In this document: in pieces, positions 10,737 through 34,211 of the stretch
Layout of the letters: each line of letters starts with the position of its first letter
Position numbering within the stretch: the stretch's first letter is position 1
NCBI GenBank assembly: GCA_003252535.1
Contig: QKDN01000026.1
Coordinates: 1 to 36,195 of the forward strand
Origin: Campylobacterota bacterium
GTDB taxonomy: Bacteria; Campylobacterota; Campylobacteria; Campylobacterales; Sulfurovaceae
DNA: 36,195 nucleotides
Reading direction: 5' to 3'
Notes under the pieces: model-generated
What the model saw: the letters and a program-made list of their open reading frames with translations, nothing else
Told to the model about the DNA's origin: nothing
Database searches by the model: none
Translations under genes and position numbers: made by a program

Positions 10737-13700
10737 TTACCTCACCATATCGATCGTATCGATCCAGAATCCCCTCTCAGTATTGCTGATACCGAGTCTT
10801 TGTTTGCTGTGACCTCGGCGTTCTTTGTTCCCTTTGGATATCCTGTAGTCGAACTCTACGAGGACGTCATAGTAGCGACCGTTGTCGGCTTTGCCTACTA
10901 TCTCTACCCTTGTGAAAGTGTATTCCTTTTTCGGCCAGTCCTGGTTGTTGATATTCCTGTTCTCCATCAGGAACTCTTTGGTCGCGTTCCGTTTGCCAAA
11001 GAAGTTACGGATCGGGAAATTGAAATACCCCAGATATTCCGCAGGACGGACGTTCTTCTCTTCGAGCCTGTAGTAGTCCTTGACGAATCCGACTACGTCC
11101 TGTGAGACGGGAACAGTATTGTTCTTGGACTTTTTCGCCGTCTCTCTGTCCATGACCGTGATGCTTTCGCTCTCCTGTGCATAGTTGTTGATGCGGGTGT
11201 CGTACATCGCTTCGGCGATCACTGCCGGGAGCTGGCACTCGCCGCGTGCCGTCGCCATCAGCGGGGTGGTGACGGTGGCGATGTTCTGTACCTTCTGAAC
11301 TATGTTTTTCTTGGTGAATGGATCATAGCGGTTCTCGGTCTTGGCACTGAGATTGAAGAAGAGGAGGAGCCTGTCGTCGCGGATATCCTTGTTGGTGACG
11401 GTCATATTTTGCGTCTTGACACCGCTGCCGCTTCTTTGGCCGATGATCTCCATACAGGCAGGGATCCTCTGGTTGAGGACGACATTGTCAATCTTGTCCA
11501 TATTGGAGATGACCACCCTGGAGTAGAGCTTGCTCCCCTGCTCAATGGCAGAGAGATCGACAGGGTTTCCCTTCTCGTCTACGAACTCACGCTTGATCGA
11601 AAGGGTATCGGTATAGGAGAGTTCGTTCTTGATCTCTTTGGGGAGGTTCTTGTAAGCCTCGATGTCATAGTGGACTATGCCGGAGACCGGTTCGATAACC
11701 ACGGTATCATCATCCAGATCGACGGTCATGACCCGCGGTGCATCGAGCTTCTCCCTGACACCGTTGATGGTGAGCCAGAGTGACATCTTGTTGTTGACAC
11801 TCTGCCCGAGGTAAGCGTTCATAGCCCTGAAGGCCATCGCCTTGTCATGGGTGGAGTAGAGCTTGCCGAACTCTTTTTCCGCCTCGATGAGCGATGACTT
11901 CTTCTTGCCGAAGTACTTCGATTCGTAGTAGAAGACGAGGAAAATATCCCTCGCCTGCGATGAGAAGTCCCTCGCACCCGAAACATAGTTCACCTTGCGG
12001 ATATCCTCAAGCTTGATATGTGAGACCCCGGCATATATCCTGGCTGCCAACGGTTCGTTACCAAGGTTCTTGAAGATCGCCGCCATCTGGTACCATGAGA
12101 TATAGTACTCTTTGTAGATATTGTTGTCATAGAGCATATTGGCGATAGAGCTCTCGAGCATATCGTTCTCGGAGAGGACGAACGCCGCATAGACCCTCAG
12201 CGGATTGTCATACTTGCCGCTGAGGCTGCTTGAGGCATTGGCTATATTGACGAGTGTGTTCTTGAGCTTCTTTTTGACACTCTCATCGAGGGTGAATCCA
12301 CCGCGGTCAAGCTCCAGGAGTACTTCGGAGGCATAGATCGATGTATACGCGTCGACATAACCTTCCTGCCAGTAGTTGAGCTCGCCGTAATAGTTCTGGT
12401 ATTTGACCAGCTGCTTGATCCCCTGTCTGATGAAGTTGTCGCTCTCGCCGAGGAGTCGCTTGTCCCTGAGATAAGGCTTGGCATGATACATCGCCGCTAT
12501 CCTGGAGCTGATCTGCTCGGCACAGCCGTAGGGGTAATCGATAAGATACTTCAGTTCGCTGTAGAGGGCACCGACCGGATTGTCGGAGATGCTCACGATC
12601 GCTTTGCCACCTTTGTATCTCGATGCGATACGGACCACGCTTTTTTTGGTGACGGTATCGCGGTAGCTTTCGGTCTCGAGTGTATAGGGGGTCATCACCT
12701 CTATCTTGAGGGTATTGCTGTACTCTTTCCTGTCGACGACGGTGCTGATGGTGATCTCGGCTTTCCCCTCCTCGAGCGCTTTGAGCGAGGCGTTGACCAC
12801 CACTGAGGAGTTCGGCGCTACGGTGATCTCTTTCTGTCCGATATCGAAAGTGAGGTTTGTAGTATGGTTACTCTCCAGGCTCAGTGTTTTCGCCTCTCCG
12901 GTGGTATTGAACACCCTGACAGGAATGCTCAGCTTGTCCCCCTGTAGGAGGAATCTAGGGTAGGATGGCTTGATCATGATATCGTCCTTGACGATGAAAT
13001 CGCCGTTCGCCACCCCTACGCCGTCCTTCGTAAGTGCGATCGCTACGATGGTCGCTTTGCCGTTGAACTCAGGGATATCGAGGTTGACCCTTACCTTCCC
13101 TTCATAGGTGGAGGCAAAGGACGACCAGAGCATGAACGGTTTGATACGGTCGAGGTTCTCAGGTGGGAGGTGTTTCTTCCGTTTCTCGTCCGCATCGGCA
13201 CCGAAATCGATCAGTTTCCCTTCGGTGAGGTAGTTCATCACCCTGTCATAGATATCGAAATACATGAAGAGGGCATCGGCAGGGAGGTTGAAGAATTCGA
13301 ATATTTTCGGCGGTTTCTGCTCCGTGATACCCAGTATCCCCGCATCCACGACGGAGACCAGTACGAGCGCCTCCCTGTCGGTACTGACAGTGAGAGGCAG
13401 CAACGTCTTGGACGGCGATGTGGCATTGTAATCGAGCTCTATCTTGATACGCGACGCCTCGCGGTTGGGCTTGACGAACTTGTACCCGGTAGCACGGAAC
13501 GGTACGACCCCGTCGCTCAGGTCAGTCTTGCGTACCGCCGTAGCGTGGAGATAGAGTCCTCTTCCCATATCTTCTTCGAGAGGTATGTCAAGTGTCGCCG
13601 TCCCTTTGGAAAGCTCGACCCTTTTGTGCCACTGGACCTTCTCTCCTTCGAGGGTGACAAGGAGGTTCCCTTCGAGGATAGGGGATTTGAACGACGCCTG

Positions 13701-16661: not shown

Positions 16662-16722
16662 CCATCCAAATACTTTCTCCGCAAGTGAACGCGCTCTGCA
16701 GGAGGAAGTGTGCAATTTATAT

Positions 16723-16730
16723 AGAGGAGA
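16723..16730 (+). promoter_or_regulatory. Ribosome binding site that sets the frdC start at TTG 16735
   Basis: AGAGGAGA is spaced well from TTG at 16735. The upstream in-frame GTG at 16708 has AGGAGG only 2 nt away, which is too close. Starting at the TTG places all four heme histidines at the Wolinella numbers. Confidence 0.7.
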
Positions 16731-16734
16731 AGAT

Positions 16735-17472
16735 TTGCAACAAGAACATATCATAGAACTGCTCACTGGGAAGGACTCCCGCAAGAAAAAGAGCCGGATA
16801 CCCGCCAGGCTCGACCTGCTCCAGAGCGTCACGGGGCTGATCCTCGTCCTTTTCATCCTCTTCCACCTCCTCTTCGAGTCTTCGATACTCCTGGGCAAGG
16901 ATGCGATGTACGCCCTCACCAAGGGCTTCGAAATGAGCTTCATCTTCGAGGGAGGAGAACCGCTGGTGATCTCCTTCCTCGCGCTGATGATCTTCATCGT
17001 CTTCATCCTCCACGCTTTCATTGCGACACGCAAGTTCCCGGCATCTTATCGCGAGTCGATACGCTACCGCACCCATGCAAAGCTCCTGAAGCATGAGGAT
17101 ACCAACCTCTGGTTCATCCAGATCAGCACGGGGTTCATGATGTTCTTCCTCGGCTCGGTGCACCTCTACACCATGATGACGCAGCCTGAGAAGATCGGCC
17201 CGTTCGCCTCTGCCGACAGGGTCTACAGCGATACGGCGTGGCCCCTCTACCTGCTGCTCCTCGTCTCGGTGGTGCTCCACGCGGGAGCAGGGGTCTACAG
17301 ACTGATCGTCAAATGGGGGGTCTGTGACAGAACACGCTCCAAAACCATCATCAAGGCTGCGACCGCTTTCTACCTCCTCATCGGGCTCGTCTCGCTGGGC
17401 GCCTATATCAGGATAGGCTATGAACACCGCAACGACTACGGCCAGAGATACCACACGGAGGTGAGCAGATGA
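16735..17472 (+). CDS. frdC: Fumarate reductase diheme cytochrome b subunit
   Basis: FrdC anchors the enzyme in the inner membrane, binds two hemes b and exchanges electrons with menaquinol. From the TTG start it has 245 residues and aligns without gaps to the start of Wolinella succinogenes FrdC. The heme ligands fall at His44, His93, His143 and His182, and the menaquinol-site Glu66 is present ([11 protein letters not shown]). Five membrane helices are visible. The residue at the position of Wolinella Glu180, needed there for the transmembrane proton E-pathway, is Val180 (codon GTG 17272-17274). The C-terminus is shorter than in Wolinella. The stop overlaps the frdA start (ATGA). Confidence 0.95.
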
Positions 17473-19454
17473 AGATAGTCTATACCGATGCCCTCATCGT
17501 AGGGGGCGGACTCGCGGGACTGCGTAGCGCGATAGCGGCGAGGGAGAAAGGGCTCGATACGATAGTCCTCAGTATGGTGCCGGTCAAGCGCTCCCACTCC
17601 TCGGCAGCGCAGGGAGGGATGCAGGCGAGCCTCGGCAATACCTCCATGGGAGAGGGGGACAACGAAGATGTCCACTTCGCCGATACGGTACGGGGGAGCG
17701 ACTGGGGATGCGACCAGGAGGTGGCGCGGATGTTCGTCGCCACCGCACCCAAGGCGATCCGCGAGCTCGCTGCATGGGGTGTCCCCTGGAGCAGAATACG
17801 CCGCGGTGATCACACGGTCGTCATCAACGGACAGAAAGAGACCATCACAGAGAAGGACGAAGCACACGGACTCATCAATGCCCGCGATTTCGGTGGCACC
17901 AAGAAATGGCGCACCTGCTTCACTTCCGACGCCACCGGGCACACCATGCTCTACGCCGTCGCCAACGAAGCCCTCAGACGCGGCGTGGCGATCCATGACA
18001 AGAAAGAGGCGATCTCGATCATCCATGAGAACAGCCGCGCCCTCGGTGTCGTGGTCAGAGACCTCCTCAACGGCGACCTGATCGCCTATGTCGCCAAGGG
18101 GACGATGATCGCCACCGGCGGCTACGGCCGTATCTACAAGCAATCGACCAACGCCATCATCTGCAAGGGGATCGGCACCGCCATCGCCCTCGAGACGGGG
18201 ATCGTGGCTCTGGGCAATATGGAGGCGGTGCAGTTCCACCCCACCCCCATCGTCCCCTCGGGGATACTCCTCACCGAGGGGTGCCGGGGCGACGGCGGGG
18301 TGCTGCGCGACAAGGACGGCTACCGCTTCATGCCCGACTACGAGCCGGAGAAGAAGGAGCTCGCCTCCCGTGATGTCGTCAGCCGCCGCATGATGGAGCA
18401 TATCCGCGCGGGCAAAGGGGTCGACTCCCCTTACGGCCAGCACCTCTGGCTCGATATCTCGATCCTCGGACGCGAGCACATCGAGAAGAACCTCCGCGAT
18501 GTCCAGGATATCTCGAAGACCTTCAACGGCATAGATCCCGCCGACGAGGGGAGCAAAGGGTGGATGCCCGTCCTGCCGATGCAGCACTACTCCATGGGCG
18601 GTATCCGCACCAAATCGACAGGGGAGAGCCCGACGATGGAGGGGCTCTTCAGCGCCGGGGAAGCGGCATGCTGGGATCTCCACGGGTTCAACCGTCTCGG
18701 GGGCAACTCGGTGAGCGAAGCGGTGGTCTCGGGGATGATCGTGGGTGAATACTTCGCTCAGTACTGCAAGGATACCCATCTCCACGCCCACACCCAGACC
18801 ATCGAGAAGTTCCTCCGCAAAGAGTCCGACTATCTCGACGAGATACTCGCCTACGAGGGGGATGAGGATATCTTCGATATCAAAGACCAGATGCGCAATA
18901 TCATGCAGGAAAAGGTGGGTATCTTCCGAGACGAAGAGGGGCTCTTCTACGCCGTCACCGAGCTCGAAAAACTGCTGCAAAAAACGAAGCAGATCAAAGT
19001 GGGTTCCAAGATCAGGGGGAACAACCCAGAACTCAATGAAGCCTACCGCGTCCCCAAGATGATCAAGCTCGCCCTCTGCGCCGCCAAAGGGGCGCTGGAG
19101 CGGCGCGAGAGCCGCGGCGCCCATTTCAGGGAGGACTACCCCAAGCGCGACGATGCCAACTGGCTCAGACGCACCCTGGCGACCTGGCCGAACCCTGACG
19201 ATACAATGCCGACCCTCAGCTACGAGGCGCTCGATGTGATGACGATGGAGATGCCCCCTGCCTTCAGGGGGTACGGGCGCAAGGGGCAGCTTATCGAGCA
19301 CCCCAAGAGCGCAGTGAGAGAGGAGGAGATCGAGGCGGTCAGGGCATCGATGCCCGACGCCGACAGACACGCGCTCCAGCAGGCTCTCATGGGCTACGAC
19401 CTCCCCGAAAAGTACAGGGAAAAGAACGAGAGAATAGGAGTAGGATATGAATAA
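17469..19454 (+). CDS. frdA: Fumarate reductase flavoprotein subunit
   Basis: FrdA reduces fumarate to succinate, or the reverse, at a covalently bound FAD. It has 661 residues and matches the Wolinella protein closely. The FAD fold starts at IVGGGLAGL (10-18) and the FAD-linking histidine is His43 ([11 protein letters not shown]). The catalytic residues are visible: His257 (QFHPTP), Arg301 (ASRDVVSRR) and His373 (QHYSMGG). A short insertion, relative to Wolinella, lies just before His373 (DEGSKG). The C-terminal FrdA-type tail [12 protein letters not shown] is typical of the group. The ATG has GGAGG 7 nt upstream and overlaps the end of frdC; the 3' end overlaps frdB by 8 bases. Confidence 0.98.
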
Positions 19455-20193
19455 AAGCCACACATACGACCACGACAGCGGGCGGAAGATCACCCTCTCC
19501 ATCTTCCGCTACAACCCGAGCAACCCCGCTTCGGAGCCGTCGTTCAGGGAGTACACCCTCACCGAGACGCCGGGGATGACCCTCTATATCGCTCTGACCA
19601 AGATATACACGAGCATCGACCACGATCTGAGCTTCGATTTCGTCTGCCGCGCGGGTATCTGCGGCAGCTGCGCGATGGTGGTCAACGGCAAACCGCGCCT
19701 GGCGTGCAAGACCCTCACGAGCGAGTTCGCCGATGCCAGGATCACCCTCATGCCGCTGCCCACCTTCAAGCACAACAAAGACCTCTCCGTCGACACGGGC
19801 AACTGGATGAACGCGATGAGTCTCAAGGTGGAGAGCTGGATACACTCCAAAGAGCAGACCGATATCTCCCGCATCGAGAAGCGGGTCGATCCCGATACTG
19901 CCGACGAGATATTCGAGCTCGACCGCTGCATCGAGTGCGGCATCTGCCTCGCGTCATGCTCGACCCGGATCATGAGGGAGGACTTCATAGGCGCCGTGGG
20001 GCTCAACCGCGTGGCGAGATTCTCCATCGACCCCCATGACGAGCGCACCGACGAGGACTTCTACGAGCTCATCGGGGACGACAACGGGATATTCGGCTGC
20101 ATGAGCCTCATGGGCTGCGAAGACCACTGCCCCAAACACCTCCCCCTCCAGTCGCGCATCGCCTATATGAGGCGGAAGATGGTGAAGGTGTAG
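19447..20193 (+). CDS. frdB: Fumarate reductase iron-sulfur subunit
   Basis: FrdB passes electrons between the FrdC hemes and the FrdA FAD through three Fe-S clusters. It has 248 residues. All ligand sets are present: 2Fe-2S at Cys67, Cys72, Cys75 and Cys87; 4Fe-4S at Cys161, Cys164, Cys167 with Cys228 as a likely partner; 3Fe-4S at Cys171, Cys218 and Cys224. This agrees with the quinol:fumarate reductase family. The start ATG follows AGGAGTAGGAT and lies inside the end of frdA, so subunit stoichiometry is probably held by coupling. Confidence 0.97.
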
Positions 20194-20211: not shown

Positions 20212-21048
20212 ATGAAAAAACATTCCTCTAGTTCCATCCTCTCCCGAGGTGGAACTCACACCGTATTGTCAAACGATACCGCTCCACCACAGGAGTGGAG
20301 GAGCCAGGGGAAAAAACTATTTACTTTTTTCTCGCTCTTTGTACTTCTCGTTACACTCACAGGATACCTTCTCTACGATGGTATCATCTGGTTCAACAAT
20401 CCCTCCAAAACAGAATATCCCGTACGGGGTATCGATATCTCCCATTATCAGGGTGCGATCGACTGGGAACTCCTCAAAGAGGAGAAACTCAGCTTCATCT
20501 ACATCAAGGCTACCGAAGGCGGCGACTACAAAGACACGCACTTCTCAGAAAATTGGGACAATGCCATAAAATCGGGTCATTATGTCGGTGCTTACCACTT
20601 CTACAGACCATGCACCGACTGGGAACTCCAGGCGGGCAATGTCATCTCTACGGTTCCCAAATCTCCACAAATGCTTCCATTGGTCCTCGATCTCGAGTTC
20701 ATCGGCAACTGTAAAACACCCAGAGCTGCCGAAGAGATCAGAAGAGATATCCGGTCACTGAGCCAAAGACTCTCTGAGCACTACGGCGCTGCGCCATTGT
20801 TTTATGTAACGGAAGAGTTCTATGAACGCTATCTCATAGGTCACTTCGACGATATCGGACTATGGTATCGCGATATCTTCACCAAACCGCAACTCAAAGA
20901 CGGCAGAGATTGGCTCATCTGGCAATACTCCAACCGGGGGCATATCAGAGGGATCAAAGGATATGTAGATCAGAATGTCTATAACGGTGATCTGGGATCA
21001 TTTAAAAAATTGTTGCATACTGCACCTCGTTTGAATCCTTCGATCTGA
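20212..21048 (+). CDS. Membrane-anchored GH25 muramidase (lysozyme family)
   Basis: GH25 enzymes cut the MurNAc-GlcNAc bond of peptidoglycan. The protein has 278 residues: a Ser/Thr-rich cytoplasmic tail (1-33), one membrane helix (about 36-58), then the catalytic barrel. Family motifs are clear: GIDISHYQG with Asp75, YIKATEGG near 97-104, YHFYRP, and Asp160-Leu-Glu162 in LVLDLE, the predicted catalytic pair. WQYSNRGHIRGIKGYVDQNVY is the usual end of the fold. The topology puts the enzyme in the periplasm, tethered to the inner membrane. It starts 18 bp after frdB with a GAGAGGG site, so it may be read from the frd promoter, though no functional link to fumarate respiration is known. Confidence 0.9.
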   Translation: MKKHSSSSILSRGGTHTVLSNDTAPPQEWRSQGKKLFTFFSLFVLLVTLTGYLLYDGIIWFNNPSKTEYPVRGIDISHYQGAIDWELLKEEKLSFIYIKATEGGDYKDTHFSENWDNAIKSGHYVGAYHFYRPCTDWELQAGNVISTVPKSPQMLPLVLDLEFIGNCKTPRAAEEIRRDIRSLSQRLSEHYGAAPLFYVTEEFYERYLIGHFDDIGLWYRDIFTKPQLKDGRDWLIWQYSNRGHIRGIKGYVDQNVYNGDLGSFKKLLHTAPRLNPSI

Positions 21049-21830: not shown

Positions 21831-23099
21831 ATGAAAAAAAAAGTATTGACAGCAGTTTTTTTGTGCTCGTTCCATCTGTTCGCAAATCAGGATATCATCG
21901 ATCTGTCCCAAAAAGAAAATCTTGCATTGGTCAAAAATGACCTGTGCAGTGCAAAGATCGTCGCATTGGGTGAGAATTCACATTTTGTCAAAGAGTTCTT
22001 TGAAGTAAAAGATTCAATGATCAAGTTATTGATCCGGGAGTGCAACACTTCGACTATCGCTTACGAGATAGGCTTCATCGAGGGACTGAAGATCGATCGG
22101 TGGATCAAAGGGGATGGGAAGGAGGAAGATATAGACAAACTTCTCTCCCATTTTTACTATCCCAACGAACTAAAGGGAACTCTGTCATGGATCAGAAGAT
22201 ACAATCATCAACATCATAACAAGATCACATTTTTGGGTCTGGATCTACCCAGAAACGGCGGTTCCCTCTATCCCAACCTACAGGTCATTGCGGATTTCAT
22301 AGTGAAAAACGATCTGAATGCATCAGAGTCCGACCTGATCGAAAGTATCCGTCCGATAGCCGGGAAATTGGATTTTGACTCGGCCGCACAGGTGGTCTTC
22401 ACCTATGATACGCTCTCGACCGAAGAAAAGAACACTCTGACGGCTGCACTGGAGAAATTGAAAATCAGATTTGAGAACCTTGAGCCTTTGTATCGTTCGG
22501 AAGCAGATAAGAGAGCGTTCGATATCACAATGCACAGTATCGACGGTCTCGTTTACTTCAATTACAATATGTCCTCCATGTCTGCACTGCTCAAGGGCAA
22601 TGCCAAACCCTCAGATATGGGAACCAGGGACAAATATATGTCGGATATCGTGTCATGGTATGCTACCGGGAACCCCGGCAGCAAAATAGTTTTGTTGGCG
22701 CACAATGCACATATCCAAAAAACACCTGTAGCGTTCGACGGTTTTATCAGCAGTATTCCCCTTGGTGTACGGCTCGATCAAGCCTTTGGGGAAAAATACC
22801 TGGCGCTTGGTATCACCTCGCTGACGGGAAATACGGCTGCGCTTTATCCAGATAAAGATCAGAAATATGGATTCAAGGTAGACATTACTACGCTGGAGCC
22901 CCCTGTCGCAGGGAGTATAGAGAGCTATCTGTCCCGGGAAAAGTTTCTCCGGGGGTATCTGTTTTTCAGATGCTCGCCTGATGGACTGCAACCTGACAAA
23001 ATCAGGTTTGACTCCGCTTATCTGACCGAAGATATCAAAAAAGCTTTTGACGGTATGATCTTTACACAAAGGTCTACGATATCTGAAGTCGTACGGTAG
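21831..23099 (+). CDS. Erythromycin-esterase-like periplasmic protein
   Basis: This belongs to the erythromycin esterase (EreA/EreB-like) hydrolase superfamily, whose members include macrolide esterases and many of unknown substrate. It has 422 residues with a clear signal peptide (cut near FA-NQ, residue 18), so it works in the periplasm. Active-site motifs are present: GENSH with Glu48 and His51, IAYEIGF with Glu79, RDKYMSDIVSW, and LLAHNAHIQ with His291 and His294. An AGAGGT site precedes the ATG. EreA and EreB themselves are cytoplasmic and lack a signal peptide, so the export argues against a simple resistance role. The substrate is unknown. Confidence 0.85.
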   Translation: MKKKVLTAVFLCSFHLFANQDIIDLSQKENLALVKNDLCSAKIVALGENSHFVKEFFEVKDSMIKLLIRECNTSTIAYEIGFIEGLKIDRWIKGDGKEEDIDKLLSHFYYPNELKGTLSWIRRYNHQHHNKITFLGLDLPRNGGSLYPNLQVIADFIVKNDLNASESDLIESIRPIAGKLDFDSAAQVVFTYDTLSTEEKNTLTAALEKLKIRFENLEPLYRSEADKRAFDITMHSIDGLVYFNYNMSSMSALLKGNAKPSDMGTRDKYMSDIVSWYATGNPGSKIVLLAHNAHIQKTPVAFDGFISSIPLGVRLDQAFGEKYLALGITSLTGNTAALYPDKDQKYGFKVDITTLEPPVAGSIESYLSREKFLRGYLFFRCSPDGLQPDKIRFDSAYLTEDIKKAFDGMIFTQRSTISEVVR

Positions 23100-24089: not shown

Positions 24090-24800
24090 ATGATTAAGCC
24101 TATACAAACAAAAGAACAAATAATCTATGATCAGACATTTCTTGATATGCATAATACAATCAAAGTTTTGTTAAAGCAATATTTAAAACCATCAACTTTT
24201 TTAATTTCATATTTATCCGAAGATGATTCAGCTAAAAATAGATTTTTACAACTTCTTCTACAGAATACACATGATGGATATATTATGAATAAAGAAAATA
24301 CTGACGAATTTACTGCTTTAATAGATATGATTACCTCACATGCTGATAGATATGGCAAACGAAAGCTTGATTTCAAAAAGATAAAGAATAATATTAACCC
24401 TTCTATTGATTATTTTACAAAGATCATTGAAGGCAGGATAGACAACACTTGTGTTTTTTATCTCACTTATGATGAAAGTTTTTTCAATAAATTATATGCT
24501 CTATTATCCCCTCCGGAGATAATTTCCGGTGTCATTATGAACGATGTCAGTAGAAAAACAAAAACAAATGATAATTTAGTTGCAATTATTTTCGTTGGCA
24601 CGAAAGGTTCTAATGGCATTTATATTCAAAGCAATCTTGAACTAAAAACAAAAATTTATGATGCTTTAACGCTATATGGAAATCCTTATATAGAAGGATA
24701 TAAAAAAGGATTTTTTCTTGCGCGAGGACTTTTATGGGGTGTACCACCTATACCAAATAGCGAACAAGCTCAGCTTATCATTGATAACTTGAAAAGATGA
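24090..24800 (+). CDS. AT-rich orphan gene, function unknown
   Basis: No family is recognised for this 236-residue protein. It has no signal peptide and no membrane helix, so it should be cytoplasmic. The N-terminal half is rich in helix-forming Leu, Lys and Ile; the middle has a strand-like VFYLTYDESFF and a VAIIFVGTKGSNGIYI segment; the end is aromatic and Gly-rich (GYKKGFFLARGLLWGVPP). Its base composition is far more AT-rich than all neighbours, and codons ending in A or T dominate, unlike the amidotransferase gene just before it. GGGAGGAG gives a strong RBS. Together with the inverted-repeat element directly upstream, this points to horizontally acquired DNA. It could be a defence, toxin or phage-derived gene, but the sequence shows no such motif. 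Confidence 0.7.
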   Translation: MIKPIQTKEQIIYDQTFLDMHNTIKVLLKQYLKPSTFLISYLSEDDSAKNRFLQLLLQNTHDGYIMNKENTDEFTALIDMITSHADRYGKRKLDFKKIKNNINPSIDYFTKIIEGRIDNTCVFYLTYDESFFNKLYALLSPPEIISGVIMNDVSRKTKTNDNLVAIIFVGTKGSNGIYIQSNLELKTKIYDALTLYGNPYIEGYKKGFFLARGLLWGVPPIPNSEQAQLIIDNLKR

Positions 24801-24981: not shown

Positions 24982-25005
24982 TATCGCGCCAACATCGGCG
25001 CGATA
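24982..25005 (-). terminator. Terminator of the polysaccharide-lyase operon
   Basis: TATCGCGCC (24982-24990) and GGCGCGATA (24997-25005) form a perfect 9-bp stem with a 6-nt loop, 12 bp after the lyase stop. On the minus strand it is followed by CTATATTTTGT, moderately U-rich. It may also act on the plus strand. Confidence 0.65.
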
Positions 25006-25017
25006 TGGATAGGGCTA

Positions 25018-28000
25018 TTACTTGATGTTTTGGAAAAGTATCGAAGCGGGTATTTCACCATAAGGGATACCCGGGCCTTCCCAGAGTACTGAGAAGTGAG
25101 CGAGTTTGTTCGCGTACTGATGCACTTCGATCTTGTGCAGACCTTTTTCGAGATAGACTTCGCCTTCCCATTGCGGTGCGCGGCGCATCCCCCGTTCCTC
25201 GATCAATACCTTGCCATCCACCTTGAGCTGTACCATACGATCCATGCGGGTATAGAAGCGATAGAGCCCGGTGGTCGGGACATCGATATAGCCGCTTACG
25301 ATCACACCGACACCGGTGCCCGTCGTCGGCAACGGAGACAACTGCGCAAAACTCAACCCATGCACCACCGCTGAAGGTATAGGGGCAAAGTCATAACTGT
25401 TGCCGACAGGATCATCAAGGTCGAAATTGTAGGTGATACCCGAATAGTATCTCGCGATCAGCCCCTGATCACCTCCTGTCCCTGCAATCGCCGGAAGGGG
25501 TTTGTAGTAGCGTTCACGCATCGCATCGGCTTCGACGAATCCATCGGGATTATCAGCCGAGAAATCTACCTGCGCATGATCCTCGAGCGTGATCTTGCCG
25601 TTCGTCGTCACGCTGTGTGTCCCTGTGCCGTTGAGTACATAATCGACGCTCGTATCCGACGGAAGCGACACGATATCGATCGAACCGTTCTCATCCAGGG
25701 CATGTGCCGCTTTGGCATTGATCCGCTCGGAGCGGTCATTGCCCGGCAGGACGCGTGCGATATAGGGTACCGTCGTCGCACTGTTGACCAAACGGAGCTT
25801 TGCCGTCGCTGCGGTGCGTCGCGGGTAATGGATCTCCTGTGTCCCGTTGCTGTCGATCCATACGCCGGGATCGGTATTGACAAAGATACGGGTCTTGCCG
25901 CACGCGGTCTTGACGACACCGTGAATCGTATAGCTGTTGACGAATACCAGTTTGCCGTTACCGTCATAGTGTTCGAGCAGGAGCGTTTTCCCGGTCAGTT
26001 CATACCCTTCGTCCAGCGCCATATCGGTATCGAAGGCATTGGCCGCCGCACCGTCTTCGGTACGCCAGACACTCTGGATATTTCCGGTGAGCTGCGCATC
26101 GGATGCGACGAGGGTGCGGGCAGCATCGTTCATGCTCGTCCCCTGTACCATCCACATATCGCTTTGCGCACCCGATGTAGAGTGTGCGACCATCAGCGCG
26201 TCGGCAGTGATACCGTTGTAGCTCATCGTTTTGCGCCCGTCGAACGATACCAGGTATCTGTCGACCCTGCCGTTCTTCAGAGTGACGCTGATACCGATGG
26301 CATTCGTACCGATGTTCTCTCTGCTCACCGACTGGATAAAGGAACTGCCCGTCCCGTCAAGCACCTCATGGACGGCGACGAAGGTACTCTTGAGCGGTGC
26401 GGTTCCGGTGCGGTGGATCGTATATTGCGGTACTTCATGACCCGGATCGGTCCACTGCTCGGTCATACGGTTCAGGTAGAGCTCTCCCGCTTCCCCCTGC
26501 GCCGGGAAGTGCGAACGCGTACCGCGGTTGGGATCATCGCCAAAGGTGATATCGACCCAAAAAGCGTCATTGGCACCATACGAAGCCTTTTGAGTCTCGG
26601 TGAAGACCGCCTCTTTGGAGTCTGCGATCGGCATCGTAGCGGAGAGCGTCGTCAGGTTGGTCGTCGGATAGTTTTGCACCAAGACACCCGAACCGCGCAT
26701 CAGGTAGTCGTGCTGACTTCCCCCGTTCGATTCGAAGATATCGACGGTATAGGCTTTGGCAGGGTCGATGGTGTTTTGGATCAGCGTTCTACGATAGCGA
26801 TCCATCCAGATACCTCCCGTACCGTTCGCATTGCCGCCCTGCATGATGTGCGAGCCGTCCACACGCGCGAACTGTACACGCGGCATCGGGGCGAAGACTT
26901 CGACCCGTCCGCCGATATCGGAGACATATTTGTTCTGCCACTCCTCATCGACCATGACCAGATTCTTGTTCTGTGGGCCGTGGCTTTGGTTCTGATGCCC
27001 GGGGAAGCTGAGCAGGTTACGCCCGTTCCCGAAGAGTCCGAACATCAGCGTATCGTTGTGCGCGTGTCCGTTTGCCCCGGTTTTGGGCGAGAAGTGTATC
27101 AGAGACTGGGTTTGGAGATTTCGCTCGTCGAGCGTGCCGTCCCCGAGCCCCAGCTGCCCGTAACCCGACAGGAGGTAAGGGCGCGCCATTTTCTCTATGC
27201 TGTAGCCGAAGTGGTATCCGCCCGCACCCCAAGCCGATGTCAGGGTAGGATCGGAGGGGTCATGGTACTGGAGTCCCGTATCGTGCGACCCGCTGTCGGT
27301 ACCATCGGGAAGCGTCAGTTTGACCGCGTTGGTGACCATACCCCGTGTGCGCAGTGACGGCGGGATGATCTGGTCGTGGGTCAGCGGTGCAGTGATCTTC
27401 TTGACCCCAGCAGGCGGTGTCCAGTCGTCGGGGTCTTGGTAGCCGTCGAGCTGCGCAGCGATCATCTCCAGCCCGGAGAGCCACAGGAAGTGGTAGTTCA
27501 TCCCTTCCCCGCTCACCCCGTCCTGACTCACAAGGAGACTCAACCGTGCGTTGGACTGGACATACCGCAGCATCACATGGGCGATCTCCGGCCATCCTTT
27601 GTTGGGGTCATTGAAATCAGGCACATAGTTCGTGACCGCCATGACATGGAGGTTGCCATAGAGATACCCCATCTGTTCGCCGGTCAATATCTGCCGATAG
27701 TCATCCTGGGTATAGTCCAGGTATCCGGGGCTTTGCTCAGGAGCGCCTTTGGAGATCGCATCGATGAGCGGCGCCGTGCCGTCGCTGTCGGTATAGATGC
27801 CCCCTGTCAGCGCAGCGCTGCCGATATTGCAAACGGCCAGCTCAGGGGTGATCGTGACCATAGAACCCGTTGTCGTGGTGTTCCCGGTATCCGTAGTATT
27901 GCCGTCCGAAGTCGTCGAGTCTCCGGCAGTTGTCGTACTGTCAGCGGTATCGGCGGCAGTGTCGGGTGCACTCGTCCCTCCCCCTCCGCCGCATCCGATC

Positions 28001-28050
28001 AATAGTGTGATTAACGGCGCCCATAAGAGCGCTTTGACAGATTGTTTCAT
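25018..28050 (-). CDS. Lipoprotein heparinase II/III-like lyase with PA14 domain
   Basis: This 1010-residue exported lipoprotein has a signal peptide with lipobox LIGC (Cys20), then a poly-Gly and Asp/Ser/Thr-rich tether up to about residue 70. With Gly after Cys it should reach the outer membrane. An alpha-toroid region at about 90-290 contains DGVSGEGMNYHFLWLSGLEM, typical of heparinase II/III and related polysaccharide lyases. The beta-sandwich part follows with NGHAHNDTLMFGLFGNGR near 325-345, matching the family HAH-D motif. The last 150 residues (about 862-1010) form a PA14 domain (GLIARYYSG, TGLYRFYTRMD, VDGKVLIEE), commonly glycan-binding. The expected action is beta-elimination of a uronic-acid polysaccharide at the cell surface; the substrate is not predictable. 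It is second in an operon, 15 bp after the CBM6 lipoprotein gene, with AAGGAGAG as RBS. Confidence 0.78.
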   Translation of the reverse strand: MKQSVKALLWAPLITLLIGCGGGGGTSAPDTAADTADSTTTAGDSTTSDGNTTDTGNTTTTGSMVTITPELAVCNIGSAALTGGIYTDSDGTAPLIDAISKGAPEQSPGYLDYTQDDYRQILTGEQMGYLYGNLHVMAVTNYVPDFNDPNKGWPEIAHVMLRYVQSNARLSLLVSQDGVSGEGMNYHFLWLSGLEMIAAQLDGYQDPDDWTPPAGVKKITAPLTHDQIIPPSLRTRGMVTNAVKLTLPDGTDSGSHDTGLQYHDPSDPTLTSAWGAGGYHFGYSIEKMARPYLLSGYGQLGLGDGTLDERNLQTQSLIHFSPKTGANGHAHNDTLMFGLFGNGRNLLSFPGHQNQSHGPQNKNLVMVDEEWQNKYVSDIGGRVEVFAPMPRVQFARVDGSHIMQGGNANGTGGIWMDRYRRTLIQNTIDPAKAYTVDIFESNGGSQHDYLMRGSGVLVQNYPTTNLTTLSATMPIADSKEAVFTETQKASYGANDAFWVDITFGDDPNRGTRSHFPAQGEAGELYLNRMTEQWTDPGHEVPQYTIHRTGTAPLKSTFVAVHEVLDGTGSSFIQSVSRENIGTNAIGISVTLKNGRVDRYLVSFDGRKTMSYNGITADALMVAHSTSGAQSDMWMVQGTSMNDAARTLVASDAQLTGNIQSVWRTEDGAAANAFDTDMALDEGYELTGKTLLLEHYDGNGKLVFVNSYTIHGVVKTACGKTRIFVNTDPGVWIDSNGTQEIHYPRRTAATAKLRLVNSATTVPYIARVLPGNDRSERINAKAAHALDENGSIDIVSLPSDTSVDYVLNGTGTHSVTTNGKITLEDHAQVDFSADNPDGFVEADAMRERYYKPLPAIAGTGGDQGLIARYYSGITYNFDLDDPVGNSYDFAPIPSAVVHGLSFAQLSPLPTTGTGVGVIVSGYIDVPTTGLYRFYTRMDRMVQLKVDGKVLIEERGMRRAPQWEGEVYLEKGLHKIEVHQYANKLAHFSVLWEGPGIPYGEIPASILFQNIK

Positions 28051-28065
28051 GATCTCTCCTTTGAT

Positions 28066-31000
28066 TTATTCTTCAAATACGATCCAGTCGACCACGCCGA
28101 CTTTGCCCCAGACCTTTTCGTGGACGATGTAGAGGTCGTGGACACCCGTGGCTGTCCCCGTGACCGCTGCGGTATGCTCGTCGAACTCTGTCCACCACTC
28201 CTCCCTGTCGGGGAAGTCGCTCCCCGTCGCGTGGGTCGTGACCGTCGCGATGAGCGGCCCGTCGGGAGCGTCGAGTCTCACTTCGATATTTCTCCCTTCC
28301 ATACCGCTTTCGACGGCGATATTCATTATGACGCTCTTGGCGCCTTTGCTGCCGAAGTCAACATTTTGGTACATCGTCCAGGAGTATTTGTCGAAACTAC
28401 CGAACCCGAGATAGTCGTATACGGCAGTGTTGGCGAGATCATCGGCAGACTCCGCTTCGATGCGATTGTACGCATTGCGCGATATCTCCTGGGGGAGGAG
28501 CTGTGTCTCGCTCCCGGCGTTGATCTGCACATTGACCGTATCGTTGTCGCCGAGGGTCGCGCCGGAGGGGTTCTTCATCGAGATGCTGAACCCTTCTGCC
28601 CCCTCTGCAACGAAGTCGCGCTTGATCCTCACAGTGACATACTTCCTCCGCTCGAGCGGTCTGAATGTCACCTTCGTGGTACCGACCAGCTCGAAGTCGT
28701 CGCCCTCCGTCGCGCCGTTCTCCGTGATCTGCAGATCGACCGTGACAGCGGCATCGACCGCTTTGGAGAGGAGGACAGGGATGCGGATCACCCCTTCGGA
28801 CTCGTCGACGCTCATGCTGCCCGACTCGAAGCTCACCGTGACGGTGCCGTCGTTGGCAAAGGGGTAGCTCGTAGCCCACTGCGTCGTCGTATCGTTGAAG
28901 GCCTCTTTCCACTCCTCGAACGGGATATCGCCCGGAGCATATATCCTGCGCGTGGTGTCGGGCGCATAGAGGGTGTTGTCGGCGGATGTGGCGTTGGCGC
29001 CTATGATGTCGTAGTTGTCGTAACGCATCAGCTTGCCGTCACCGCTTTTGACGGCGATGATGTTGTCGGTCATGGTCAACCATTTCCCCATATAGACATC
29101 GGGGGTGTTCTGCTCGGTTCGCACCGGGTAGTAGAGGGTGGAGATGATGCCCCATGCCCCGCCGATATTGCTTTGTGCCATGACATTGTTCCTGAGATAG
29201 ACCTTTTCCGAATCGACCCGTACCCCCGCATCGTTGTTCTCGTAGATGCTGCTGTTGATCAGACCGAGATTGAGCTGATCGACCTCGAACCACACCGCCC
29301 CTCCATTTTGGGTGAAATAACAGTTGTCCAGGGTAATATCCTGATTTTGGGCATCGAACCAGATACCGTGGCGGGTATGGTGGGAGATGGTCGCATCTTC
29401 GAGGTAGATACGGCTGGAGAACATCACCTTGCCGTAGCCTGAGAGGTCGGGGCCGGTATAGTATCCCAGATCGTTGCGCCAGTGGTTATAGGAGAGGGTG
29501 AAGCCTCTCAGGTATGCGTTGGCATAGCCTCTTCTGGTTACGATGCCTGCCCTGCCGTTGTCGGTGAACTCTCCGCCCCTGACGACGAGATCGGCGCCGG
29601 GGCTGAAGAGCATCCCCGTAGAACCGTTGTCTATAGCATCGCAATCCTCCACCAGGAGATGGGAGCCCTCGATCCTCACCGCTTCTCCGCTCGTAGCAGA
29701 GTATGTGTTCTCGAACGACGCGTCGTGTTTGAAGGTGAGCCCTCTGAGCACGATGAAATCCCCCGAACTATGGAACAGACCGTCGTATACGCCCACCTCG
29801 ATCAGGCTGCTGTTGGGGTCTTTCGTGCTTCGCAGGTAGATCAGGTCGTTGGTCTCGTCCACATAGAAACCGTGATCGTCTCCCATCAGCGTCGTGGCGT
29901 TCGGGTTGAGTGTGCTGTTCTCGAGTCTCTCCAGGCTGGGGTATGGTCTCGCCATCACGCCGTCGACCGCTACGATCTCGCGGTGGTAGCGGACTTCGGT
30001 ATCGAGGTCGACCGTCGAGGGGAGCTGGAACGCCTTCCTGCCGTAGTTCTCCGTCCACACATGCGTCCAGATACCGCTGCCTGGCGAAGTCTCCGTCCAT
30101 GTGTTGCTCCAGACCTCCGAACCTTTGATCGTCACCGTTCCGGCTGTCTCGGCCTCTATCACGATAGGCTGGTAGAGTGAACCGCTCTTGTCGAGTGAAA
30201 TGTGCCCTTCGCGGTAGAGTCCCGGCTTGATAACGATCCGTTTTCCCGCTGCATCGGCATTGCTCATGGCGTTGATCTTCTCCACCGCCGCTTTGATGGT
30301 GGCCAGAGGCGCCGTCTTCGAGCCGTCGTTGGCGTCATTGCCGTTGGTTCCGTCGACATAGATCGTACCGGTAGTGGTCCAGGCACTCTCATACTTCGTT
30401 GCCCATAGCTTCTTTCTGAAGTCGGCAGCGTCGTATATCTCCTCTGGCGTGAGGAGTTTCTTTTCGATCACCACATTGCTCATCTTTCCGTAGTATTTAT
30501 GGTTGCCGTCACGATCCGAACCGATGCTGAGGGTATCGATGAGGGCGTTACCGGCGCTGCTGAAGTAGCGGCTGCTGTCGTGGACACCGTTGATGTAGAA
30601 GTCCGCTTTTTTCGATTTGGCATCATAGGTCACTGCCAGGTGCAGCCAGAGCTGGTTGACCTTTCTCTCATGATCCTGACTCTGGAGGTACTCTTTTTCG
30701 TGCTCCATGAAACGGCGGTACTGTGTCTCGACTGCCGTGTCGCTGTTTCCGGCTACTTCGAAGGACAAAGCGACATCTTTATCCTTGAAGGTATCCGCCT
30801 GGTTGTCTGTGATGCTGAGCTTGATATTCCCCGTGGCTGCACCGCTGTCGAGGAGTACCGTCTTCGCCTCCCGGAGATCGTCGATATAGACATGCATCAT
30901 AATGGTAATAGCATCACCGCTCCCCAGATCGGCAGCCGCTTCGACATACCCTCCGTCAAAGAGATAGGCATCGTTCTCGAGCGTCGATGTGCCGGAGGTG

Positions 31001-31203
31001 ATGTTCTGTGTGTTCATGCCCGTGACATTGCCGGGGATACCGTCGGCAAAATCGAGGCTGAAACTCTGACTGACCGCTGCATCGCTGCCGTCATCGGTCT
31101 GGATCGTTCCCTCTCCGTTTGCCGTACTGCCGCCGCCTCCGCCGCATGCAGCCAAAAAGAGTACCAGCAGGACCGGCACTCCCCATCGTATGAGCTGTTT
31201 CAT
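28066..31203 (-). CDS. Multidomain lipoprotein: LamG, beta-helix, Calx-beta, CBM6
   Basis: This 1045-residue lipoprotein has lipobox LAAC (Cys20) and a CGGGGG tether like its neighbour. Domains in order: a LamG/concanavalin-like sandwich at about 50-259 (FINGV-type strand, LSIGSDRDG, YYGKMSNVVI); a right-handed parallel beta-helix at about 275-735, starting YVDGTNGNDANDGSKTAP and carrying repeated short strands such as HLLVEDCDAIDNGSTGM; a Calx-beta domain at about 784-894 (MSVDESEGVIRIPV, ATEGDDFE); and a CBM6-type carbohydrate module from about 916 (RIEAESADDL ... HDLYIVHEKVW). The helix could be a polysaccharide lyase or hydrolase of the PL6/PL1 fold, but no catalytic residues are certain. 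It is first in the operon and has an AAGGAGAG RBS. It probably binds and trims an extracellular polysaccharide with the lyase encoded next. Confidence 0.8.
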   Translation of the reverse strand: MKQLIRWGVPVLLVLFLAACGGGGGSTANGEGTIQTDDGSDAAVSQSFSLDFADGIPGNVTGMNTQNITSGTSTLENDAYLFDGGYVEAAADLGSGDAITIMMHVYIDDLREAKTVLLDSGAATGNIKLSITDNQADTFKDKDVALSFEVAGNSDTAVETQYRRFMEHEKEYLQSQDHERKVNQLWLHLAVTYDAKSKKADFYINGVHDSSRYFSSAGNALIDTLSIGSDRDGNHKYYGKMSNVVIEKKLLTPEEIYDAADFRKKLWATKYESAWTTTGTIYVDGTNGNDANDGSKTAPLATIKAAVEKINAMSNADAAGKRIVIKPGLYREGHISLDKSGSLYQPIVIEAETAGTVTIKGSEVWSNTWTETSPGSGIWTHVWTENYGRKAFQLPSTVDLDTEVRYHREIVAVDGVMARPYPSLERLENSTLNPNATTLMGDDHGFYVDETNDLIYLRSTKDPNSSLIEVGVYDGLFHSSGDFIVLRGLTFKHDASFENTYSATSGEAVRIEGSHLLVEDCDAIDNGSTGMLFSPGADLVVRGGEFTDNGRAGIVTRRGYANAYLRGFTLSYNHWRNDLGYYTGPDLSGYGKVMFSSRIYLEDATISHHTRHGIWFDAQNQDITLDNCYFTQNGGAVWFEVDQLNLGLINSSIYENNDAGVRVDSEKVYLRNNVMAQSNIGGAWGIISTLYYPVRTEQNTPDVYMGKWLTMTDNIIAVKSGDGKLMRYDNYDIIGANATSADNTLYAPDTTRRIYAPGDIPFEEWKEAFNDTTTQWATSYPFANDGTVTVSFESGSMSVDESEGVIRIPVLLSKAVDAAVTVDLQITENGATEGDDFELVGTTKVTFRPLERRKYVTVRIKRDFVAEGAEGFSISMKNPSGATLGDNDTVNVQINAGSETQLLPQEISRNAYNRIEAESADDLANTAVYDYLGFGSFDKYSWTMYQNVDFGSKGAKSVIMNIAVESGMEGRNIEVRLDAPDGPLIATVTTHATGSDFPDREEWWTEFDEHTAAVTGTATGVHDLYIVHEKVWGKVGVVDWIVFEE

Positions 31204-31409: not shown

Positions 31410-32096
31410 CTAGGGTCTCAGGCGATACCCCAGCGCATAGCTGTTTTCTACAAGTTGTTTGTTGTTATCGGTGCATCGGGCAATCTTCTTATTGAATCTG
31501 AAGATCAGCTGTATGAGCTTGTTGTCATAGGAGGCATCGGGAATTTCATCTGCCCATATACAGAGGATAAGAGCATCTTTGGAAATATAGTTCCCCGGGG
31601 AAGCAGTCAGAACTTGCATCAGTATACGCTCTTTTTTGGTAAGCTTGATGCTGAAATCTTTGTATAGAAGATCATACGTTTCCAAATCCAGAAGAAGGTT
31701 TTCTCCTATAAACAGGACTTTTTTCGCTTGTAGCTGATTGATCAGCATGATCAGTTTGTTTTTGAGAAGATTTTCATCGACAGGTTTGATGAAATAGGCA
31801 TCCAGCTTCAGATTGACCGCCTGGAGGAGCAGCTCCTGCTGGGAGTGTGCCGTCAGCATCACGACAGGCGTTTGCTGATCCTTCTGGCGTATTTTTTTCA
31901 ACATATCCAGACCGCTCACATGCGGCATACTGATATCCAGCAGCATGATATCGGGTCTCTTCTCATGATACTGTATGAGCGCTTCTGCCCCGTCTTGAGC
32001 TAAAAATATCTCTTTGAAGTAAGGTTTGAGGATAAAAGCATAATTCTCCCTTGTCTCCTGATCATCTTCGGCATAAAGTAGCGTCATGTCATACAT
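31410..32096 (-). CDS. OmpR-type response regulator
   Basis: A two-domain DNA-binding response regulator of 228 residues. The receiver domain (1-120) has the acidic pair Asp11-Asp12 (AEDD), phosphoacceptor Asp54 (LLDISMP), Thr in MLTAH, and Lys in FIKPV. The C-terminal winged helix (about 130-228) has LTKKERILMQVL and the ending ALGYRLRP. Two starts are possible: ATG 32096, or the fourth codon (ATG 32087, MTLLYAEDD), which has a better spaced AGGA. It follows the histidine-kinase gene by 105 bp, in the same direction, and is surely its partner. Targets are unknown; the adjacent lipoprotein operon is an obvious candidate. Confidence 0.93.
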   Translation of the reverse strand: MYDMTLLYAEDDQETRENYAFILKPYFKEIFLAQDGAEALIQYHEKRPDIMLLDISMPHVSGLDMLKKIRQKDQQTPVVMLTAHSQQELLLQAVNLKLDAYFIKPVDENLLKNKLIMLINQLQAKKVLFIGENLLLDLETYDLLYKDFSIKLTKKERILMQVLTASPGNYISKDALILCIWADEIPDASYDNKLIQLIFRFNKKIARCTDNNKQLVENSYALGYRLRP

Positions 32097-32201
32097 CCTG
32101 GAACCTTGAACTGAGAGTTGTCATCTATATTATCCTGTAATTGAACCTTTATTTGTACAATTATGTCACGAGAATATCTGCAAAAAATGACATTTTATGA
32201 T

Positions 32202-34211
32202 TTATCGGAGTATTTTTTTGGGAAGACCTATTGCAAACGAGACACCACTGTCGATATTCTCTACCTCCAGCGTGCCGTTCATGCTCTTTTCCACCAGCAT
32301 TTTGGCCACATAGAGTCCCAGTCCCGTACCCGAACCGGCAAATTTCGTCGTATAGTAGGGTTCGAAAATACGGTTGATGTTTTCCGCTTCTATCCCTCCG
32401 CCGTTATCTGAAAGTATGATATGGACGCTCTCCTGCTCTTCATAGAGCTCTATCCTGATCCGGGGATCGGGTGTCGATTTCGACTCGAAGTTATCGACGG
32501 CATTGTTCAAAATGATCAGGATGACCTGCTGGAGCTCTTTTTGGTAGGTAAAGAGCTCGATGCTTTGGTCAGAGAACACCTCCACCGTGACACCCTTCAG
32601 TCGCGTGTCGATCAACTCCAGTGCTTTCCGGATCGACTCCTGCACATGGAACAGACCCTTTTTTTTGTCAGGATGGAAGTAATTGGCGAAGTCTTCGATG
32701 GTATCCGACATATACCTGGTGTTCTTTTTGATATTATTAATCTTGGCGTGAAATATCTCCCTGTCGATCTCTCCGCTCTCGAGTACCGTACCCAGCACGG
32801 CAACATTCGAGTTGATACGGCTCAGCGGCTGGCGCCATTGATGGGCGATACTGTTGAGCATCTCTCCCATCTGTGCCAGACGGCTGTTTTGCATCATCAA
32901 CTCCTGCTGCTTCCTGTTCTTTTCGACCTCCAGTTTCACCCTGGACTCGAGCGTTCTGTTGAGCTCTTCAAGTTCGTTCCGGGTATTGATCAGGTCTTCC
33001 GTCCTGCTCTGCACCTCTTTTTCCAACGCCTGTTTGGCCTGGAGTTCGAGCTGCAGCTTCTCATTCTTGAGTATTTTGATCCTCTCTGCCAATGCAAGCG
33101 AAAAAAACACGATCTCATAGAGACTGCCCACCATCGCGCTGTAGCGGTTGAAGTAGCTATAGGGGAACCACCCCGCGGCCATCAGCGAGAATGGCAGGAG
33201 CAGGATGAAAAAGACCGCCTGCGCCAGCAGATAGTAATATGCCGCTTTATTTCCCAGGCGGTAGCTCATCACCGCGATGATAAAGAGGAGAGGGACAAAT
33301 ACCTGCGCTATCAGGTTGACCAGGAATATGATACGCGTACTCTCCGATACATTGAAAACGACTACCAATAGCGCCAATGCGATACTCAAACGGGCCGCCT
33401 TGTCGACTCTCGACATCAACTGCCTGGTCAAAAGGAGCTCCCGGCTGAAAAGGATGATAAAGATAAAAAGCGAAGATAAAGCAAATGCCGCGATCTGGTA
33501 AAGAGAAGCGCCGCCTATTCTGGTCAACGGAGGGAAACCGCTGATCGTAAACTGCCATAGCGCGAACGAACCGACATAAAAGATATAGTACAGGTATATC
33601 TTCTCGCGTATGGAGATGTAGAGAAAAAATGTATAAAAGATGAAGATCAGTGTAGCCCCGAAGTAGAGGCCGTACATCTGGTTTTTGATCAGGTTGGCTT
33701 CTGCTAGGGACGATCTGTCCCCGATCTGGATCGAGGTATAGAGCGTCGTCACGCAGCGCATACGGAGGTAGAGCGTTTTTGTCTCGTTTTGGGTCAGGCG
33801 AAGGGGAAACCTGATCGAAGAGGCAGGGATGATCCTCTCTTCGTACGGGATATCATTCCCTCCCCGCAAACGGGTCGTCTGCTCCGGGGAGATCACATAG
33901 AGGTCGACCTCGGATATATGCTTTTCAGTGATATCTACGATATACTCCAGCGTCTTATCGGTATGGTTGACGATATCGAACCTGTACCAAAAGACCGAAT
34001 CGGAGTAGCCCTCGGCGATGTTGTTCGTCGCTTCGGCGAACGCCTGCCGCTGCACCTGATCCAGCGGCATCGCTGCCGTTTTGTCTTCATAGCGCTGGAG
34101 CCTGAAACTGTCGATCAGCCCATTGTGATCTTCGACCACGAGCACATTGCCCGCATACAAACAATTCACAAAGAAGAATAGTACGATGAAAAAACGAGTG
34201 ATACTGCCCAT
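32202..34211 (-). CDS. 7TMR-DISM sensor histidine kinase
   Basis: This 669-residue membrane sensor kinase has a signal peptide (1-20) followed by a periplasmic 7TMR-DISM extracellular domain (about 21-175, with VFWYRFDIVN and YLRMRC). A seven-helix transmembrane unit covers about 178-380 and a coiled coil about 385-445. The HisKA-type dimer domain carries the phospho-acceptor His457 (NSIAHQWRQPL), and the ATPase domain has NNAVDN, SDNGGG and GTGLGL. DISM receptors often sense carbohydrates or other small ligands outside the inner membrane; the ligand here is not known. It is the first gene of the two-component pair. Confidence 0.94.
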   Translation of the reverse strand: MGSITRFFIVLFFFVNCLYAGNVLVVEDHNGLIDSFRLQRYEDKTAAMPLDQVQRQAFAEATNNIAEGYSDSVFWYRFDIVNHTDKTLEYIVDITEKHISEVDLYVISPEQTTRLRGGNDIPYEERIIPASSIRFPLRLTQNETKTLYLRMRCVTTLYTSIQIGDRSSLAEANLIKNQMYGLYFGATLIFIFYTFFLYISIREKIYLYYIFYVGSFALWQFTISGFPPLTRIGGASLYQIAAFALSSLFIFIILFSRELLLTRQLMSRVDKAARLSIALALLVVVFNVSESTRIIFLVNLIAQVFVPLLFIIAVMSYRLGNKAAYYYLLAQAVFFILLLPFSLMAAGWFPYSYFNRYSAMVGSLYEIVFFSLALAERIKILKNEKLQLELQAKQALEKEVQSRTEDLINTRNELEELNRTLESRVKLEVEKNRKQQELMMQNSRLAQMGEMLNSIAHQWRQPLSRINSNVAVLGTVLESGEIDREIFHAKINNIKKNTRYMSDTIEDFANYFHPDKKKGLFHVQESIRKALELIDTRLKGVTVEVFSDQSIELFTYQKELQQVILIILNNAVDNFESKSTPDPRIRIELYEEQESVHIILSDNGGGIEAENINRIFEPYYTTKFAGSGTGLGLYVAKMLVEKSMNGTLEVENIDSGVSFAIGLPKKILR

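Follow-up and report, generated by a model that had tools for sequence, protein, structure and literature searches.

A lipoprotein gene pair with a compact heparinase II/III-like core lacking two metal ligands in a member of the Sulfurovaceae

The window analysed here is the whole 36,195 nt stretch of contig QKDN01000026.1 (forward strand), taken from the assembly GCA_003252535.1 of a Campylobacterota bacterium of the family Sulfurovaceae, the genome of which is 99.95% complete. Two large codirectional genes lie on its minus strand with a gap of 15 bp between them. The upstream gene (28066-31203; open reading frame and Pfam) encodes BetaH, a lipoprotein of 1045 aa with LamG, β-helix, Calx-β and CBM6 parts, and the downstream gene (25018-28050; open reading frame, Pfam, tblastn, alignment and Foldseek) encodes HepL, a lipoprotein of 1010 aa in which a reduced heparinase II/III-like lyase core is joined to a C-terminal PA14 domain. 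Both open reading frames were found at exactly the positions given in the initial annotation of this DNA, and both starts are preceded by ribosome-binding sites of the AAGGAG type. An intrinsic-terminator-like hairpin with a 10-bp stem (24982-25005, minus strand) follows directly after the HepL stop and has the strongest stem among the terminator-like sites here, which as a class are no commoner in this DNA than in shuffled sequence. The two proteins would be produced from a single message.

The N-termini of HepL and BetaH are lipoprotein signals with the endings ...LIGCGGGGG and ...LAACGGGGG respectively, as had been proposed; that of HepL covers residues 1-20 (LIGC; 27991-28050, minus strand). 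Both proteins are probably anchored in the outer membrane. The matching CGGGGG tethers are present in both proteins, but a reading of them as the mark of a dedicated pair was rejected since a further lipoprotein encoded in this genome has the tether too, as does one from a different genus within the order. As the tether is a local style, the lyase-PA14 module of HepL has probably come to lie behind an export tether of the native type.

A two-component system lies directly upstream of BetaH in the same direction. It consists of a response regulator with a receiver and a winged-helix output (31410-32096, minus strand; Pfam), 206 bp from BetaH, and a sensor histidine kinase with a 7TMR-DISMED2 extracellular sensor (32202-34211, minus strand; Pfam), a domain reported to bind carbohydrate in NicD (PMC8544897). 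When orthologues of the kinase were sought in 40 relatives, almost all of the matches listed covered the kinase half and none was close over the full length. The initial annotation had noted that no SusCD, ABC or TonB transporter lies nearby, and no transporter was recognised among the window genes examined, but the two-component system with its carbohydrate-type sensor at 31410-34211 had been missed. Judged from its adjacency, this system probably controls the BetaH/HepL pair.

The domain architecture proposed for BetaH was recovered in full by Pfam, with all four domains well over the cut-off: LamG at residues 85-256 (30436-30951), a β-helix match to PF13229 at residues 509-674 (82.8 bits), Calx-β at residues 785-882 (28558-28851) and CBM6 at residues 932-1044 (28072-28410), all on the minus strand. 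The right-handed β-helix as a whole spans approximately residues 280-745 (28969-30366, minus strand). Over the first ~250 helix residues it shares 24% identity with a protein from Phocaeicola whose GH120-like nature is clear (E 3e-129 to 3VST). In the GH120 β-xylosidase XylC (3VST), D382 is the nucleophile and E405 the acid/base (PMC8954004). In a gapless scan, the best placement of BetaH residues 612-655 on the active-site stretch of XylC put D617 (29353-29355) and E640 (29284-29286) over D382 and E405, with the same spacing of 23 residues. The score of 24 in this register (shuffle maxima: 95th percentile 16, highest 23, n=300) and that of 29 with a Streptomyces relative (95th percentile 12, highest 43) are moderately above the shuffles, and another register was best for one of the four references in the gapless scan and was also the choice of MAFFT. 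BetaH resembles XylC at the start of the β-helix and probably in the segment matching the GH120 insertion, but differs from it in the additional LamG, Calx-β and CBM6 domains and in having no Pfam match to the insertion-domain model PF21258, which is present in the Phocaeicola relative. The single-sequence AlphaFold model of the helix reached a pLDDT of 37.8. The BetaH helix is thus similar to those of the GH120 glycosidases and may retain the Asp/Glu pair, a lead towards GH120 kinship and not an assignment to the family, and the role of BetaH may go beyond binding.

In HepL, Pfam reports the PA14 domain alone (residues 901-998; 25057-25350, minus strand). The core falls under every Pfam and NCBIfam threshold, PF07940 (Hepar_II_III_C) gives no match to HepL even at a maximum E of 10, and the whole genome holds no PF07940 match over the cut-off. 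By tblastn, the core is similar to haloarchaeal proteins annotated as heparinase II/III (E 4e-7), which themselves match PF07940. With the AlphaFold model of HepL as query (overall pLDDT 55.8, good in the sandwich only, the helical half below 50), the top Foldseek matches were PL17, PL40, PL39, PL12 and PL15 structures (E 1.6e-12 to 4e-7, probability 1.00), with TM-scores that are low (0.20-0.35) because the sandwich alone is well modelled. A profile of 24 aligned homologues matched PL40 and PL17 chains (1.7e-22 and 1.6e-20). Sequence homology, the Foldseek search and the catalytic motifs together show that the core is heparinase II/III-like, and the assignment of HepL as a heparinase-II/III-like-PA14 protein, made earlier from the sequence, is upheld by tblastn, the 24-sequence alignment and Foldseek for the core and by Pfam for PA14. 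Of the fold expected from structure prediction, the C-terminal antiparallel β-sandwich of the lyase type is present (Foldseek), but the toroid is incomplete and its helices are of low confidence.

The nearest relatives of HepL are two tandem proteins of the Gammaproteobacteria MAG BB4 (JADGDG010000001.1, L018), with 54% and 46% identity over the core and PA14. They share with HepL the compact toroid and identical Phe/Lys substitutions, and differ from it in having N-terminal PKD or cadherin repeats and no lipoprotein tether. The core is ~20-30% identical to haloarchaeal and Paenibacillus heparinase II/III proteins, which unlike HepL have a full-length toroid and an intact metal site. The alignment of 24 sequences comprises the three compact proteins (HepL and the two BB4 paralogues) and 21 others. 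By this alignment the catalytic Asn/Tyr/His set is kept in HepL as N133 (27652-27654) and Y186 (27493-27495), located in the reduced helical (toroid) region of approximately residues 95-310 (27121-27768, minus strand; alignment, with helices in the low-confidence part of the model), and H329 (27064-27066) in the β-sandwich of approximately residues 311-660 (26071-27120, minus strand; alignment, model and Foldseek). N133 is present in all three compact proteins and in 20 of the 21 others, and D177, G178, E182, Y186, H329, H331, D333 and R421 (HepL numbering) in all 24. The catalytic residues of the PL35 enzyme GAGase II are Asn192, Tyr246 and His401, and its Asn-Tyr and Tyr-His spacings of 54 and 155 residues are close to the 53 and 143 of HepL (PMC12088678).

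HepL departs from the heparinase II/III-like lyases of PL17, PL40, PL39, PL12, PL15 and PL35, with which it shares the sandwich fold and the Asn/Tyr/His motifs and spacing, in its short toroid, in Phe/Lys in place of the metal-binding Asp/His and in being unseen by PF07940. No complete N-terminal (α/α)5-7 toroid is found in HepL: from the lipid Cys to Asn133 there are at most ~110 residues, linker included, as against ~158 in GAGase II, counted from where its toroid starts to Asn192 (PMC12088678, Tables 3 and 4), and an estimated ~310-370 before the catalytic Asn in Paenibacillus-type homologues. The missing part corresponds to the one that carries the substrate-binding Arg87, Arg88, Arg94 and His136 of GAGase II (PMC12088678). 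At the metal site (His, Asp, Asp, His) HepL keeps H331 and D333, while Asp is replaced by F349 (27004-27006) and His by K362 (26965-26967). All three compact proteins have Phe and Lys at the two changed positions, and all 21 others have Asp and His; in 66 further homologous frames these positions are acidic (Asp or Glu) and His throughout, 59 of the frames passing the strict motif pattern and the other seven having Glu for Asp or HD for HN.

When any one of the four metal ligands of GAGase II was changed to alanine, activity was lost or fell substantially (PMC12088678), so that HepL is either adapted to metal-free work or inactive. Under the second option HepL would be a protein of heparinase-like lyase ancestry that binds glycans but no longer cleaves them, and the pair would be a surface adhesin or matrix tether. 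This accords with the loss of two ligands essential in GAGase II, with the missing N-terminal toroid part and with the several binding modules of the pair. We consider it unlikely, though a serious alternative, as nothing would keep the catalytic motif residues in a protein that only binds, and all of them are present in three proteins as diverged as 46-54% identity to HepL. This retention favours activity and suggests selection for function. The HepL clade may, as a tentative proposal to which we give somewhat less than an even chance, represent a distinct active class of lyases with half a toroid and metal-free catalysis, in which K362 replaces the structural metal, and thereby found a new PL family. 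As a surface carbohydrate unit the pair is of an ordinary kind, and its interest lies in this compact, metal-ligand-less clade, which offers a natural experiment on the extent of toroid fold that catalysis requires and on whether the sandwich metal is dispensable.

The compact type is of restricted distribution, and among the homologues found it occurs outside the HepL genome in BB4 only. The HepL core was absent from 60 relatives, from 397 genomes sampled across the phylum and, BB4 itself aside, from 186 genomes related to BB4, and phage and viral-contig collections contained no HepL relatives. When the HepL-family alignment was used to scan 84,980 species genomes, 63 loci were returned, namely BB4 and 62 distant ones, and the same type of contig scan with the HepL sequence alone as query returned zero matches. 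A search of the BB4 class (369 genomes) was swamped by cadherin and PKD repeats, with no other lyase core among the matches listed. For BetaH, matches across the phylum were confined to Calx-β, the helix start or the signal region. The rarity of the pair supposed at the outset is therefore confirmed, neither protein occurring in the 397 genomes beyond single shared domains, and from this restricted distribution a lateral origin is likely. The suggestion of acquisition from Gammaproteobacteria fared less well: the only close HepL relatives do occur in a Gammaproteobacterium, but a donor role is unsupported, as BB4 encodes no BetaH and its locus has a GC content of 35% against ~57% for the pair. 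Recent transfer from BB4 is unlikely on this composition, the GC3 of the pair (0.69-0.75) being like that of the host core and the neighbouring housekeeping genes. In a neighbourhood comparison for an empty site, a radical SAM gene alone was common to the loci compared. In BB4 the tandem compact lyases, with PKD versus cadherin N-termini, adjoin a TonB-dependent receptor and ferredoxin/DsbD-like genes (L018:2899-12841).

On a slight balance of probability, we regard the pair as a two-enzyme, surface-anchored polysaccharide-processing unit with a compact lyase devoid of the metal site, probably under sensor control, that trims acidic exopolysaccharide. In this mechanism BetaH would hold the glycan by LamG and CBM6 and perhaps hydrolyse it by the β-helix with its GH120-like Asp/Glu pair, and HepL, assisted by PA14, would cleave an acidic (uronate-containing) polysaccharide by β-elimination, with N133 neutralising the carboxylate and Y186 and H329 serving as acid/base. 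The compact clade would have lost the first part of the α/α toroid and the metal site of the sandwich, and K362 possibly takes over the charge of the lost metal. The two-component system with its sugar-type sensor would probably control both proteins, and their likely job would be the trimming or release of exopolysaccharide at the cell surface and not feeding. A bacterium from a sampled phylum otherwise without these proteins would carry a surface polysaccharide-cutting unit with a sugar-type sensor next to it, a finding of relevance to the way in which such cells manage their matrix.

With a lyase, a possible glycosidase, binding modules and a sugar-type sensor alongside, the unit also resembles a minimal utilisation locus, and the pair might accordingly break down algal or other external polysaccharide for uptake. 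This nutritional role appears rather improbable, as no transporter was recognised among the window genes examined and as KDPG aldolase, on the standard route for the products of uronate lyases, was not found in the 99.95%-complete genome (control search positive in 8/14 genomes). Being a single marker with other routes possible, the missing aldolase is a weak argument against uronate feeding and weakly favours remodelling of the cell's own exopolysaccharide; of the roles that we infer for the pair, trimming or release of matrix has the best support. That HepL is a normal full-length lyase decayed by random N-terminal truncation, as its toroid, shorter than in other homologues, might suggest, is very improbable, since in the two long paralogues of the unrelated MAG BB4 the homology begins at nearly the same point, following PKD or cadherin repeats, and since HepL is equipped with a signal peptide and a ribosome-binding site of its own.

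Other genes of the window deserve mention. The gene adjoining the pair at 24090-24800 is a strong compositional outlier (29% GC, GC3 0.21) with no confident family and is likely a recent acquisition. An erythromycin-esterase-family protein is encoded at 21831-23099 with a GC content of 0.45, below that of the neighbouring housekeeping genes. A GH25-type lysozyme gene (20212-21048) stands directly after the succinate dehydrogenase/fumarate reductase operon (16708-20193), and the gene at 10737-16445 encodes a bacterial α-2-macroglobulin-like protein of 1902 aa with a Big_5 domain.
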